From Daejeonella sp. (GTDB taxonomy: Bacteria; Bacteroidota; Bacteroidia; Sphingobacteriales; Sphingobacteriaceae): 64,000 nt of DNA. Of the stretch, positions 32,993 to 41,423 are shown in pieces (positions within the stretch are counted from its first letter, which is position 1; each line of letters begins with the position of its first letter). Where the stretch lies: contig NZ_JAFEIG010000007.1 in the NCBI RefSeq assembly GCF_017495225.1, positions 62,001-126,000 on the forward strand. Reading direction: 5' to 3'. The position numbers were made by a program, and so were the translations under genes. The notes below the pieces were generated by a model that saw only the letters and a list, made by a program, of their open reading frames with translations, was not told the DNA's origin and did no database searches.

Positions 32993-33547
32993 ATGTCGGA
33001 TAGAGGTTTCCAAATTAAAGATCAATACGCAGTACATTTTCTCACCTTCACTGTAGTTGAATGGGTGGATGTTTTTACTAGAAAGATCTACTCAGATATT
33101 TTAATAGATAGTCTAAAGTTTTGTCAAGAAAAAAAGGGACTAAAAATACATGCATGGTGCATCATGAGCAATCACGTTCATCTAATCTTATCTACAGACG
33201 GCGTCAAAAAACTTTCTGATGTAATTAGAGATTTTAAAAAATTTAGTTCTTTTGCCATTATAAATGCCATTCAGAATAATCCTAAAGAAAGTAGAAAAAA
33301 ATGGATGTTATGGATTTTTGGGAAAGCAGGTAAATTTAATAGTCGAAATGAAAATTATCAATTTTGGCAGCAGACTAATCATCCAATAGAATGTTCTTCG
33401 GAAGAAATATTGATGTCAAGAATGAAATATTTACATGAAAACCCAATTAGGGCAGGAATTGTAAATTTTGAACAAGATTATTTGTATTCATCGGGTATTG
33501 ATTATTATGGAAATGGCCGAGGCTTGATTAAAATTGATTTTGTGTGA
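32993..33547 (+). CDS. REP-associated tyrosine transposase (RAYT, IS200-like Y1/HUH)
   Basis: A 184-aa single-strand DNA nuclease/transposase. The HUH motif is His61-Val-His63 in WCIMSNHVHLIL; the candidate catalytic tyrosine is Tyr146 in KYLHENPIRAGIV, a phrase characteristic of the TnpA_REP branch. The frame is intact, so the protein may be active. It is flanked by matching hairpins on both sides. Relatives usually exist as one or a few copies and are considered domesticated or self-limited. Confidence 0.9.
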   Translation: MSDRGFQIKDQYAVHFLTFTVVEWVDVFTRKIYSDILIDSLKFCQEKKGLKIHAWCIMSNHVHLILSTDGVKKLSDVIRDFKKFSSFAIINAIQNNPKESRKKWMLWIFGKAGKFNSRNENYQFWQQTNHPIECSSEEILMSRMKYLHENPIRAGIVNFEQDYLYSSGIDYYGNGRGLIKIDFV

Positions 33548-36403: not shown

Positions 36404-37564
36404 ATGAAACAAGTATTTGACGACAACATACAAGACACAAGCGTTTTGTATATGCATGAAACCCGAGTGCGAAGCCAAATTATTTACAGTATTACTCTTT
36501 TAGCAATAATATTAGCTGTATTGGCATTGCCATTTATACATACTACAATTAGTGTCAAAGGACTTGGTTTGGTGCAGAGCAACATAGAAAAGACTGAGAT
36601 TTTAGCTCCAGTAAGTGGTAAAATCGTTGCAATTAATTTAAAAGACAATCAAAAAGTACATAAAGGTGATCTTTTAATTCGAATAGATGCAGCAATACCA
36701 AAACAGCAAAGTGATATTTTAAGCAACAAAAATAATCAATTACAAAATTTACTAAACGATGCCGAAATGCTTATTAAGGCACTTGATTTTGCGAAGGAGA
36801 CAGTCTCATTGCAAACTGGCTTATACAATTCAAGTTGGCAACAATATTTAGAGCAACAGCAAAATGCACTTAACGCTAAAGAACAAAGCTTTAAAATTTA
36901 TAAACGTTATGAAACGCTTCATACAAAAAGGGTGGTAACTCAAGCGGAATATGAACAATATAAATACAATTACGAGCAAGCCTTATCAGACTTAAAAATG
37001 GTTGCTAAGAGGTACCGAACGCAATGGCAAACAGAGGCTAACCAATACCGCAACGAACTTAAAGAAATTCAAAATCAAAAAATACAACTCAATGAGCAAG
37101 AAAAATTGTATACCGTGAATTCGCAACTTTCTGGCTCAGTACAAAATTTAACTGGTTTACAAATTGGTGCCTATGTTTATGCTAACCAAAAAATTGCAGA
37201 TATAAGTCCCGATACTGCACTATTAGCTTTCTGTTTCATCAAACCTTCTGATATAGGTCTAATTAAAAAGGGACAACATGTTCGTTTTCAAATAGATGCA
37301 TTTAATTATAATCAATGGGGTATGCTTACTGGCAAAGTGGTAGATATAAGTGATGACATTTTTGTGCAAGACAAAACGACCTATTTTAAGGTAAAATGCA
37401 AGTTTGATAAAAACTATCTACAGCTAAAAAATGGTTATAAAGGTCATATCAAAAAAGGAATGAGCTTTAACGCCAATTTCACGGTTACCAAACGCAGCTT
37501 ATTTCAATTGCTTTATGATAAAGTTGATGATTGGATTAATCCAGAAACCGCAAGAAAAAGCTAA
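36404..37564 (+). CDS. HlyD-family membrane-fusion protein of a peptide exporter
   Basis: A 386-aa periplasmic adaptor. After a cytoplasmic N-terminus there is one membrane helix (about residues 27-48), a lipoyl-like half-motif (EKTEILAPVSGKIVAINLKD), a long alpha-helical hairpin (about 100-230), and a second beta-barrel half (SGSVQNLTGLQIGAYV onward). It links inner-membrane ABC exporters to the outer membrane. The C39 transporter starts 27 bp later, so the two work together. Confidence 0.9.
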   Translation: MKQVFDDNIQDTSVLYMHETRVRSQIIYSITLLAIILAVLALPFIHTTISVKGLGLVQSNIEKTEILAPVSGKIVAINLKDNQKVHKGDLLIRIDAAIPKQQSDILSNKNNQLQNLLNDAEMLIKALDFAKETVSLQTGLYNSSWQQYLEQQQNALNAKEQSFKIYKRYETLHTKRVVTQAEYEQYKYNYEQALSDLKMVAKRYRTQWQTEANQYRNELKEIQNQKIQLNEQEKLYTVNSQLSGSVQNLTGLQIGAYVYANQKIADISPDTALLAFCFIKPSDIGLIKKGQHVRFQIDAFNYNQWGMLTGKVVDISDDIFVQDKTTYFKVKCKFDKNYLQLKNGYKGHIKKGMSFNANFTVTKRSLFQLLYDKVDDWINPETARKS

Positions 37565-37591
37565 AATTAAAAATCATCTCAAAAATCATTA

Positions 37592-39739
37592 ATGGCTATA
37601 CCTCTTATTAAACAACGTGATATTACTGATTGTGGAGCAGCTTGTTTGGCTTCAATAGCAAGCTTTTATGGCTTAAAATTACCAATTGCTCGTATCCGCC
37701 AAATGGCTAGTACAGATACGAAAGGAACAAATGTATTAGGCCTAATTGAAGCTGCGAATAAATTAGGGTTCGAAGCTAAAGGCGTGCGTGGAGCCCCTGA
37801 AAGTCTGAGTAAAATACCCTTACCCGCCATTGCACATATTGTGGTTAAAAAACAGCTCCATCATTATGTAGTTATTTACAAGGTTTCTGATACACATATT
37901 CAGTTCATGGATCCTGGAGATGGCAAGCTGCACAAAAAAACTATCCCCGAGTTTTTGGAAGAGTGGACAGGCGTACTGGTATTACTCCTACCAAATGAAA
38001 GTTTTACAAAAGGTGATAAAAAAGTAAATGTAGGACAACGTTTTTGGCACTTAATTAAACCTCATAAAAGTATTGCTTTACAAGCCCTATTTGGCGCATT
38101 TGTTTATACCCTTTTAGGACTAAGCACCTCCATTTTTGTTCAAAAAATAACTGATTATGTGTTAGTAGATGGTAATCGTAACCTGCTCAACTTAATGAGC
38201 ATAATTATGATATTCATTTTACTGCTTCAACTATTTGTAGGTACTGCAAAAACTATATTTACCATGCGTACCGGGCAGCAAATAGATGCTCAGTTAATTT
38301 TGGGATATTATAAACACTTACTGAAGTTACCACAGCAATTTTTTGACACCATGCGTGTGGGGGAAATTATTTCGAGGATAAATGACGCTGTAAAAATTAG
38401 AGTCTTTATAAATGAAGTTGCTGTTGGACTTGCAGTAAACCTATTTATCATTGTATTTGCCTTTGCACTTATGTTTAGCTATTACTGGAAATTGGCACTC
38501 CTCATGCTGACAGTCATACCGCTATATTTGATAATTTATCTTATCACCAATAAGCTCAATAAAAAAATACAGCGAAAGCTGATGGAAAACAGCGCTGAAC
38601 TTGAATCTCAACTAGTAGAAAGCCTAAATGCCATGGGCACAATTAAGCGTTTTGGATTGGAATCGCATACCAATCATAAAACTGAAACTAGGTTTGTTCA
38701 ATTATTACGTACTGTATATAAATCAGGTTTAAACTCGGTTTTTTCAGGCACTTCTACAGAATTAATTGCGCAATTATTAACCATTGCCCTCTTGTGGATT
38801 GGTGCAGGTTTTGTGCTCGATAATGAAATTACTCCAGGCGAGTTATTTTCCTTCTATACCCTAATTGGCTACTTTACTGGTCCGGCAGCATCTTTAATAG
38901 GGGCCAATAAGGTCATACAAGATGCCGTAATTGCAGCAGACAGGCTATTTGAAATCATGGATCTAGAAATAGAAAATGATGCTCAAAACGTAGAGCTATC
39001 TAAAGCGAATTTAGGCGATATAAGATTTGAAAATGTTGCCTTTAGATATGGCACAAGAGTTAGCGTTTTTGAAGATCTAAATCTGCACATTGAAGAAGGT
39101 AAGTTTACTGCTATCGTTGGTGAAAGTGGCTCGGGTAAATCTACCCTCATGGCCTTACTTCAAAACATCTACCCCATTCAAAATGGGAATATATTTATAG
39201 GAAAATATGCCATTAAGTACCTCAATAATAATTCATTAAGAAATGTATTGAGTGTTGTACCCCAACAAATTGATTTATTTGCTGGAAATGTAATTGATAA
39301 TATTGCGGTTGGCGATTATGAACCTGATCTTCAAAAAGTAATTGACATTTGTAGCCAGTTAGGGATTTTAGAATTTATTGAGTCTTTGCCCGAAGGATTT
39401 CAAACCTATTTAGGTGAAAATGGGGCAACACTTTCTGGTGGACAAAAGCAAAGAATTGCCATAGCAAGGGCTTTATATCGAAATCCAGAGATTCTAATAT
39501 TAGATGAAGCCACATCATCGCTTGATTCTGCTTCTGAGCAGTATGTGCAGCGTACTATTAATTTATTGCTAGAACAACAGAAAACAATCATCATTATAGC
39601 GCATAGATTAAGTACTGTTAGTAAGGCCGATAAACTGATTGTATTAGATAAAGGTAAGGTGGTTGAAGAAGGCTCCCATGAAGAATTACTAGGCCAAAAT
39701 GGCTATTATAGTAATTTATGGAAACAACAATTTGCTTAA
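37592..39739 (+). CDS. Peptidase-domain ABC exporter (C39, double-glycine leader protease)
   Basis: A 715-aa bacteriocin-type exporter that cuts double-glycine leaders and exports the mature peptide. The N-terminal C39 peptidase has Gln8, catalytic Cys14 (DCGAACLASIASFYG), His91 (LHHYVVIY) and Asp107 (MDPGDG). Six membrane helices follow (about 165-445), then the ATPase: Walker A GESGSGKST, signature LSGGQKQRIAIARAL, Walker B ILILDEATSSLD and the H-loop IIAHRLSTV. All catalytic residues are intact. Two matching leader peptides are encoded just downstream. Confidence 0.95.
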   Translation: MAIPLIKQRDITDCGAACLASIASFYGLKLPIARIRQMASTDTKGTNVLGLIEAANKLGFEAKGVRGAPESLSKIPLPAIAHIVVKKQLHHYVVIYKVSDTHIQFMDPGDGKLHKKTIPEFLEEWTGVLVLLLPNESFTKGDKKVNVGQRFWHLIKPHKSIALQALFGAFVYTLLGLSTSIFVQKITDYVLVDGNRNLLNLMSIIMIFILLLQLFVGTAKTIFTMRTGQQIDAQLILGYYKHLLKLPQQFFDTMRVGEIISRINDAVKIRVFINEVAVGLAVNLFIIVFAFALMFSYYWKLALLMLTVIPLYLIIYLITNKLNKKIQRKLMENSAELESQLVESLNAMGTIKRFGLESHTNHKTETRFVQLLRTVYKSGLNSVFSGTSTELIAQLLTIALLWIGAGFVLDNEITPGELFSFYTLIGYFTGPAASLIGANKVIQDAVIAADRLFEIMDLEIENDAQNVELSKANLGDIRFENVAFRYGTRVSVFEDLNLHIEEGKFTAIVGESGSGKSTLMALLQNIYPIQNGNIFIGKYAIKYLNNNSLRNVLSVVPQQIDLFAGNVIDNIAVGDYEPDLQKVIDICSQLGILEFIESLPEGFQTYLGENGATLSGGQKQRIAIARALYRNPEILILDEATSSLDSASEQYVQRTINLLLEQQKTIIIIAHRLSTVSKADKLIVLDKGKVVEEGSHEELLGQNGYYSNLWKQQFA

Positions 39740-39780
39740 TAACAATAATTTATGCGATTTAAACTCCTCAAATTAAAATC

Positions 39781-40107
39781 ATGAAGTTAATAGAATATGT
39801 AGAACGCATTAATTTATTGCACAAACTAATTGACGAAAGAAGAACAGGTTGTCCAGAAAAATTGGCAAAACGTCTTAAAATCTCTAAGGGTAGACTTTAT
39901 CAATTTATTGAGGAACTACGCTTACTTGGTGTGCCCATTTGTTATTCTCGCAACCTAGAAACTTATTATTATGAAGTAGAATTTGAAATTGCAGCTAATC
40001 TTTCATTCAGGCCACTTAATACAGCAGAATCAAGAAAAATAAATGCAGGTTTTAGAATACATGAATTAAATATAAATTTTTTACCCACTCTAATTTTTGT
40101 AGAATGA
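39781..40107 (+). CDS. Winged-helix (HTH_11-like) protein with a leader-like C-terminus
   Basis: A 108-aa protein. Residues 6-60 resemble an HTH_11/DeoR-type winged helix: LLHKLIDERRTGCPEKLAKR, then LKISKGRLYQFIEELRLLGV. The C-terminal part contains LNTAESRKINAG (79-90) followed by FRIHELNINFLPTLIFVE. LNTAESRKINAG aligns with the leader cores of the two peptides downstream at -12 (Leu), -8 (Glu), -4 (Ile) and -1 (Gly), with Ala for Gly at -2. It could be a regulator whose tail is cut and exported. It starts 41 bp after the transporter. Confidence 0.75.
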   Translation: MKLIEYVERINLLHKLIDERRTGCPEKLAKRLKISKGRLYQFIEELRLLGVPICYSRNLETYYYEVEFEIAANLSFRPLNTAESRKINAGFRIHELNINFLPTLIFVE

Positions 40108-40166
40108 ACAACACTAAATTAGTATTAAGCAATTAGCACTGTTCCGGATAAAGTGATTCTTGCCAT

Positions 40167-40211: not shown

Positions 40212-40421
40212 ATGGAAAAATTAAAATTAGAAAACTTTGGTGTACGGGAAATGAATGCCAAGGAGATTATTTATATCGATGGAGGTAAGGGGCCTAAAGG
40301 TAAAATACCTTGGAAAAAACTTTGGGATTGGGCAGATAAAGGTTTAACAGCACTTGGTGTCTATGAGGCAATTGACGAATTTGCTGAAGGTTGGAATTCT
40401 GTAGAATGTAAAAAAAAATAA
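40212..40421 (+). CDS. Double-glycine leader peptide 1 (putative bacteriocin or signal peptide precursor)
   Basis: A 69-aa precursor. The leader of 25 residues ends in MNAKEIIYIDGG, with Met -12, Glu -8, Ile -4 and Gly-Gly at -2/-1, as required by C39 proteases. The predicted mature peptide is 44 residues, begins KGPKGKIPWKKLWDWADKG, is basic and Trp-rich, and contains one Cys. I start at ATG 40212, since the extra residues from 40182 precede the conserved MEKLKLENFGV leader start. It is followed 4 bp later by peptide 2, an arrangement like two-peptide (class IIb) bacteriocins. Confidence 0.82.
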   Translation: MEKLKLENFGVREMNAKEIIYIDGGKGPKGKIPWKKLWDWADKGLTALGVYEAIDEFAEGWNSVECKKK

Positions 40422-40425
40422 TGTC

Positions 40426-40614
40426 ATGAAAGAAATTTTAAAAAATAACGGAATCTCAGAATTAAAAGTAAATGAACTTTCTTTTATTTACGGTGGTGGA
40501 TTACGTGAACTTGGAGCTTGGATGAAAGAAGTATTTTGTGCTTGCACAGAAAGACGCAAAAACAGCAAACCATTTACACCCAACTATGACCTCCTTAGAG
40601 GGCCAAAAATATAA
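40426..40614 (+). CDS. Double-glycine leader peptide 2 (putative bacteriocin or signal peptide precursor)
   Basis: A 62-aa precursor. The leader of 24 residues ends in LKVNELSFIYGG, with Leu -12, Glu -8, Ile -4 and Gly-Gly. The predicted mature peptide is 38 residues, begins GLRELGAWMKEVFCACTERR and ends LLRGPKI; two Cys in CAC. The leader differs in sequence from that of peptide 1 but keeps the same spacing. A strong terminator lies 19 bp after the stop. Confidence 0.8.
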   Translation: MKEILKNNGISELKVNELSFIYGGGLRELGAWMKEVFCACTERRKNSKPFTPNYDLLRGPKI

Positions 40615-40682: not shown

Positions 40683-41423
40683 TTGAATTTGATTTTTCTA
40701 AATCACCTTAACGAATTTATTCTTTTTTTAAAGACGCCTAAAAGTAATGTTAGGAAGAGTAATGAATCACAATTTGGCATATTCAGTTTCATTCTTTTGC
40801 TTAACTCAATCGTGTTTTTTTGTGTATTAGCCATTCACTATTTATTTCTATACATCGAAAAAACTTTTAATTTTAGAGAGGGAGTTTTGATTTTAGAAAC
40901 TAAAAGTGAATATGATAAAGAGTACACCTTTGGTGTTGTAATAATAGCATGCGTTCTAATGCCATTGATTGAAGAAATAGTTTGTAGGCTTCCCTTACTA
41001 AAAAAATATGCAATCTTACTCTTTATTTGTTTGGTAAATCTTTACTTTTTATACAGAATAAAGATAATTCCTAGCACAATACTCATCATTCTTACTATCT
41101 TTTTAATTGCATATTTTCTTGACATCTATTTTAAGTGGAAAAAAAAGTATAAGCAAAGATTTTTAACTTTTTTCCTGAATACCTTGTACAGAAAAAATTA
41201 TAAATATCTTTTCTATAGTCTTATTTTAATGTTTTCTATGATGCATTTTGATAATTATATCTGGACAAGCCAAAACTTAGCTTATGGCATTAGTATTTTA
41301 GGTTTGACATTTATAACCGACTTAAGTTTTGGATACTTAATGGTACGGTGTGGCTTCATATATTCTTTATCTCTCCATATTTTATGGAATACTTTTACAG
41401 TTTTAACAGAACTATATCTCTAA
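40683..41423 (+). CDS. CPBP-family intramembrane metalloprotease (CAAX/Abi type)
   Basis: A 246-aa membrane protein with about seven helices. The CPBP motifs are Glu97-Glu98 with Arg102 (IEEIVCR), Phe184/His188 (FSMMHF) and His232/Asn236 (LHILWN), so the active site appears complete. Members often sit beside bacteriocin genes as immunity or processing proteins. The start is a TTG at 40683 directly after the terminator; no in-frame ATG exists near the N-terminus. This may keep expression low. Its role with the peptides is inference. Confidence 0.8.
   Translation: MNLIFLNHLNEFILFLKTPKSNVRKSNESQFGIFSFILLLNSIVFFCVLAIHYLFLYIEKTFNFREGVLILETKSEYDKEYTFGVVIIACVLMPLIEEIVCRLPLLKKYAILLFICLVNLYFLYRIKIIPSTILIILTIFLIAYFLDIYFKWKKKYKQRFLTFFLNTLYRKNYKYLFYSLILMFSMMHFDNYIWTSQNLAYGISILGLTFITDLSFGYLMVRCGFIYSLSLHILWNTFTVLTELYL

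Follow-up and report, generated by a model that had tools for sequence, protein, structure and literature searches.

A small DNA-binding protein encoded beside a peptide exporter, with a C-terminus that resembles the leaders of exported peptides, raises the question of whether regulation and export are joined in one molecule. The protein (P0001; 108 aa, ATG start, positions 39781–40107) is encoded within the 64,000 nucleotides of Daejeonella sp. DNA analyzed here (the window), between an HlyD/C39-ABC pair (36404–39739) and two genes for precursors with double-glycine (GG) leaders. The features of this locus described below lie on the forward strand. The HlyD-family periplasmic adaptor (36404–37564) matches Pfam HlyD_3 (E = 1.3e-13) and, under that model's own cut-off, NCBIfam type_I_hlyD (E = 1.5e-40). 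The C39 peptidase-ABC exporter (PCAT; 37592–39739) exceeds the cut-off of TIGR01193 and matches Pfam Peptidase_C39 (6.3e-35), ABC_membrane (4.8e-51), and ABC_tran (4e-29), and the DCGAAC and HYVV motifs of its C39 domain are those expected of an active enzyme. The two leader cores quoted in the original prediction could be located directly in the sequence of the downstream precursors, MEKLKLENFGVREMNAKEIIYIDGG followed by KGPKGK (40212–40421) and MKEILKNNGISELKVNELSFIYGG followed by GLRELG (40426–40614). A CPBP/Rce1-like membrane protein (40683–41423; sub-threshold Pfam Rce1-like match, E = 0.01; NCBIfam CPBP_M949_0222, E = 9e-6) is possibly an immunity protein. Elsewhere in the window, an ORF at 32993–33547 looks by eye like a REP-associated (Y1) transposase, and the genome holds four C39-domain genes besides that of the window (C6:7045, C22:115567, C31:71399, and C18:71848). 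In relatives, comparable membrane-protein genes, some in tandem, occupy the position after the GG peptides.

Residues 1–77 of P0001 (39781–40011) form a predicted winged helix-turn-helix (HTH) domain. The AlphaFold model is confident (pLDDT ~96) for helices 2–18, 25–31, and 36–48 and for the wing strands 53–56 and 61–64, and its neighbors in the PDB by Foldseek include the winged HTHs NiaR, TM1602, and BirA, though with weak E values (0.03–0.1) and TM scores of up to 0.5. P0001 does not reach the gathering cut-off of Pfam HTH_11 (PF08279; 16.6 vs 25 bits), a model that 45 of 55 family members match weakly. Among relatives the domain is the most constrained part of the protein, with dN/dS of 0.025–0.06 in three close groups. 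Judged by sequence and predicted fold, P0001 is a member of an unnamed family of small winged-HTH proteins whose genes neighbor those of C39 peptide exporters in Bacteroidia and, as had been supposed when the locus was first read, no Pfam or NCBIfam model covers the fusion of an HTH to a leader.

The leader-like motif follows directly on this domain. The frame, coordinates, and residues given for it in the original prediction are all correct: LNTAESRKINAG occupies residues 79–90 (40015–40050), corresponding to leader positions -12 to -1, with L79 at -12, E83 at -8, I87 at -4, and A89-G90 at the end. Leaders recognized by C39 domains follow the consensus L(-12)xxxE(-8)L(-7)...G(-2)G(-1) (PMC6959990). 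In PCAT1 and LahT the bound leader is helical from -10 to -4 and occupies a C39-domain groove that it contacts through -12, -7, and -4, the double glycine being held in a narrow cleft (PMC6959990, PMC6363468). In PCAT1, ComA, and LahT, leaders that have lost the hydrophobic -7 residue are bound or cleaved less well (PMC6959990). The window copy has the hydrophobic -12, acidic -8, and hydrophobic -4 residues of a C39 leader, but Ser84 at -7 and AG where the known PCAT cleavage motifs are GG, GA, and GS, and the motif sits at residues 79–90 of 108 instead of in an N-terminal leader ahead of a cargo. The Ser at -7 and the Ala at -2 make it an unfavorable standard substrate, and its cleavage is doubtful. 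AlphaFold predicts a short helix at residues 81–87, both here and in a Pedobacter homologue, which coincides with leader positions -10 to -4.

The likeness to C39 leaders was measured with a 12-column profile derived from ~50 real GG-peptide leaders of these loci, omitting -2 and -1. Only ~1e-4 of all 12-mers in the long ORFs of the window score as high as LNTAESRKINAG, and the 186 with a terminal [GA]G all score lower. Relatives were collected by an alignment search over 400 genomes of the family and then by a class-wide search of the Bacteroidia, in addition to which a tighter-alignment scan of genome contigs gave 31 loci. The motif is found at the same aligned place in HTH homologues of Pedobacter, Sphingobacterium, Olivibacter, Chryseobacterium, and others, for example LDNEDAKEINGG, LKPQELMNINAG, IDAKELAEINAG, and LDEDKMYNISGG from the family search and, with a clear GG, IITSEMEEIFGG (L215), IETSEMNYVIGG, and LRQDEEKLINGG among remote members from the class-wide search. 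In 46 aligned members, Gly is invariant at -1 (46/46), -2 is Ala (25), Gly (20), or Val (1), -12 is Leu or Ile in 44, -8 is mostly Glu, Asp, or Gln (Glu or Asp in 29), -7 is Leu, Met, or Ile in 30, and -4 is Ile in 33. With the glycine columns omitted, the family mean profile score is +3.1 at the motif, compared with -8.6 at the next-best offset and -17.9 (SD 4.0) at the remaining offsets in the same proteins. The 12 remote members, drawn from further families within the Bacteroidia, have a mean score of -2.7, which none of 20,000 draws equaled; random 12-mers ending in [GA]G have a mean of -17.4. The motif is under protein-level selection in the relatives (dN/dS 0.006–0.16, with high dS, in three close groups). 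These scores, together with conservation among the exporter-linked relatives, bear out the proposal that residues 79–90 resemble a C39 leader, and the link between export and gene control raised in the original prediction is plausible.

The motif also tracks the exporter. In loci with wide flanks, and with an HTH taken as linked if its locus contains a C39 gene or if a GG peptide lies no more than 1 kb away, the motif occurs in 33 of 46 linked HTHs and 6 of 33 unlinked ones (Fisher p = 3e-6, a value that overstates independence since the members are related). Of the six unlinked carriers, three or more (L210, L219, and L220) do have pieces of an exporter, identified by tblastn, within the locus or at its border. 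The motif is thus not equally common in HTH proteins that lack a nearby exporter, an outcome that would have counted against the leader reading. The other possible objection, homologues that keep the HTH and lack the motif, do exist, but they look like derived truncations in one Daejeonella clade plus a few single losses. Ten of the 13 linked HTHs lacking the motif belong to this clade, whose ten genomes retain the operon order HlyD, C39 ABC, HTH, and GG peptides, and whose HTH ends at FRPLTEEE or similar, with counterparts of L79 and E83 present immediately before the stop. Mapping motif-bearing and truncated members onto the HTH tree requires three changes, and the sister of the truncated clade retains the motif, making loss the simpler reading. 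It follows from these ten genomes, and the few others that keep a motif-less HTH by the exporter, that the HTH can work without the motif.

The window gene itself groups with Pedobacter and Chryseobacterium and not with its own genus, with modest support, and the ABC protein of its operon (36404–40107) is 78–84% identical to those of Pedobacter and Chryseobacterium compared with 59–69% to those of other Daejeonella. The agreement of ABC identity and HTH tree suggests that the operon was likely acquired by horizontal transfer. Two other origins for the tail were considered and set aside. Chance read-through was suggested by the stops within the genus and by a G+C content of 24%, like that of intergenic DNA, but other genera carry the motif; a frameshift was rejected as the other frames are full of stops and hold nothing recognizable.

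Beyond the motif, residues 91–108 (40051–40104) read FRIHELNINFLPTLIFVE, as had been noted, and are predicted to be disordered from residue 96 (pLDDT <50 at 96–108). The dN/dS of this tail is 0.23–0.8 in the three close groups, and in most groups its synonymous divergence is unusually low, apparently because a DNA element straddles the stop codon. This element consists of an inverted repeat around a T-tract, CACTCTAATTTTTGTAGAATG (40086–40106; putative operator and -33 region), then ~15 nt, then a TAAWTTAG box, in the window TAAATTAG (40115–40122), whose spacing from the T-tract is constant across relatives. The box is close to the Bacteroidota -7 consensus TAnnTTTG (PMC9723704), and the element as a whole is the apparent promoter of the GG-peptide gene. 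It was detected in 28 of 55 family loci, compared with 0.2 (maximum 2) in shuffles, mostly 69–89 nt and up to 129 nt before the start codons of GG peptides; precursor 1 of the window begins 89 nt downstream of it. Allowing up to three mismatches, the window element (40086–40122) is a single copy in both window and whole genome, with no further operator copies. In related loci, the same element is also seen before GG-peptide genes away from the HTH (L151:11397, L158:12754, and L155:9520, the last on the reverse strand), which suggests a small regulon. Separately, 12 related loci (L142:8358, L143:8361, L146:8359, L148:8350, L150:8364, L140:3485, L025:6351, L026:4353, L028:6385, L029:5227, L031:5760, and L033:6789) carry the Rfam DUF805b RNA (RF02914) ahead of GG-peptide genes. 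It sits between the promoter-like element, if present, and the start codon, and has no match in the window.

The half-sites of the inverted repeat vary with the protein. Among loci in which the element was detected, those with Arg at HTH position 41 have TGC half-sites in 12 of 12 cases and those with other residues there in 0 of 20. This covariation amounts to about two independent switches on the HTH tree, too few for a formal proof of the binding site, and is thus suggestive. The element at L158:12754 is of the TGC type although the HTH nearby has Val at position 41. The centering of the inverted repeat near -33 would favor repression.

The reading favored here, with a probability of about 0.6, is that P0001 regulates the GG-peptide promoter locally and, by docking as a pseudo-substrate on the C39 domain, senses how occupied the exporter is. 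The most likely target of the HTH is the inverted repeat with which its own gene ends and which covers the -33 region of the GG-peptide promoter; from there the HTH would control the following peptide genes locally, probably as a repressor. The C-terminal helix would copy the leader of those same peptides and allow docking on the C39 domain of the protein's own exporter, where regulator and real precursors would compete. The regulator would be kept away from the DNA by an idle exporter, and crowding of the exporter with precursors would set it free to close the promoter. In the case of repression, this would amount to negative feedback that adjusts the synthesis of precursors to the capacity for export. 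We infer this docking, competition, DNA binding, and regulatory sign from features computed above, i.e., the motif with its conservation and exporter linkage, the predicted helix, and the position of the DNA element. PCAT1 holds two substrates at once, one of which stays cytosolic (PMC6959990), and docking without export is therefore physically possible. The real precursors of these loci end in GG in 72 of 92 profile matches, the rest being almost all off-register or non-coding, so that GG is essentially always present in true precursors compared with Ala at -2 in 25 of 46 regulators; such frequent Ala is as expected if the regulators bind without being processed. The window copy would be expected to dock with little or no cleavage. 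The wider proposal, that transcription factors across the class carry a mimic of the substrate tag and compete with peptides for C39, with occupancy setting expression, is held at roughly even odds.

An alternative, which is rather unlikely, would have the C39 domain cleave the regulator after (G/A)G, such that removal of the tail switches its activity or stability and the freed peptide has no role. The invariant -1 Gly and small -2 residue do mirror the narrow cleavage cleft, and many members combine a full GG with a hydrophobic -7, e.g., LDEIEIQNINGG in L141 and IITSEMEEIFGG in L215. Conversely, -2 is Ala, or once Val, in 26 of 46 members, a departure from the GG of true substrates and from the known PCAT cleavage motifs, and in PCAT1 cleavage is coupled to translocation (PMC6959990). 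The original prediction had instead raised a fused pheromone precursor, whose cleavage would liberate the last 18 residues, a hydrophobic peptide, for export as a signal. Tails in the Sphingobacteriaceae are indeed often hydrophobic and 12–20 residues long, and the 18-mer has the sequence given for it, but it is in part the translation of promoter-like DNA. Across the family the tail varies in sequence and in length (0 to ~40 residues), and that of L116–L119 is unrelated; the endings PLLFL, TTFFVE, and NAFFVH are translations of one kind of DNA element whose reading frame differs among species, indicating that the conserved look of the tail is largely promoter DNA and not peptide. The low dS is likewise a DNA-level constraint. 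A conserved hydrophobic pheromone was rejected on the basis of this DNA-level analysis, and a pheromone precursor in general finds no support and is highly improbable.

Two further possibilities concern the helix and the domain. The motif could be no more than a structural element, a C-terminal helix capped by glycine and packed against the winged HTH, whose resemblance to a leader is coincidental, in keeping with the prediction of helix 81–87 in the absence of any partner. This is improbable, as it would leave unexplained the exporter linkage, the absence of the motif in unlinked paralogues, and the match at -12, -8, -7, and -4 with the glycines excluded, and the truncated relatives retain a conserved HTH. 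Further, long folded leaders ahead of GG are known (PMC10885120, PMC6363468), and the HTH could be an unusually long leader domain in the manner of Nif11/nitrile-hydratase leaders, making P0001 an exported precursor and not a regulator. Very little probability is given to this, given that the HTH is the most constrained part of the protein and persists in tail-less relatives, that the inverted repeat adjoins the HTH gene, that the putative core is not conserved, and that neither P0001 nor its relatives match the Nif11 or NHLP leader families in Pfam or NCBIfam.

The docking regulator proposed here has partial counterparts in several known systems. Export-coupled regulators are familiar from type III systems and flagella (FlgM, ExsE, and LcrQ), in which the regulator is a client of the secretion machine and ties expression to export state; P0001 differs in its C39 ABC exporter, in being an unrelated protein with a DNA-binding domain of its own, and in that export is not evidenced. 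With C39/PCAT (AMS) substrates (ColV, ComC, LahA, and CtA), the family shares the -12, -8, -4, and -1 consensus, the -10 to -4 helix, and a gene position beside the C39 exporter, but its motif is C-terminal on a DNA-binding protein, often has Ala at -2, and is not followed by a conserved cargo. Nif11/nitrile-hydratase (NHLP) leaders similarly place a folded domain before a GG motif and occur with a C39 exporter, but have a different fold from the winged HTH, which persists tail-less and whose post-GG segment is not conserved. HTH_11 and the BirA/NiaR-type repressors share the winged-HTH fold, from which P0001 is set apart by its score below the Pfam cut-off, the lack of a ligand domain, and the unique C-terminal leader mimic. 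In Nostoc, the C39 exporter gene hetC similarly adjoins the regulator gene hetP and a substrate link is suspected (PMC10986499), though no leader mimic has been described on HetP and the proteins are unrelated. A description of the HTH-leader fusion was not found in the literature searched, subscription papers being mostly outside its reach.

To our knowledge, how Bacteroidota control their secreted GG peptides, whether bacteriocin-like or signaling, is largely unknown. These loci supply a concrete, predicted set of promoter, operator, and regulator that is open to testing in soil bacteria that are harmless, and uncharacterized peptide clusters can be sought by means of the HTH-tail signature. 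Export-coupled control is known for type III systems and would here be built on a new regulator family; for C39 exporters such a circuit was not found described. The leader mimic suggests a coupling of peptide production to export capacity and, should the regulator dock on the exporter of its own peptides, a single protein would form the circuit by which their synthesis is matched to the capacity for export.
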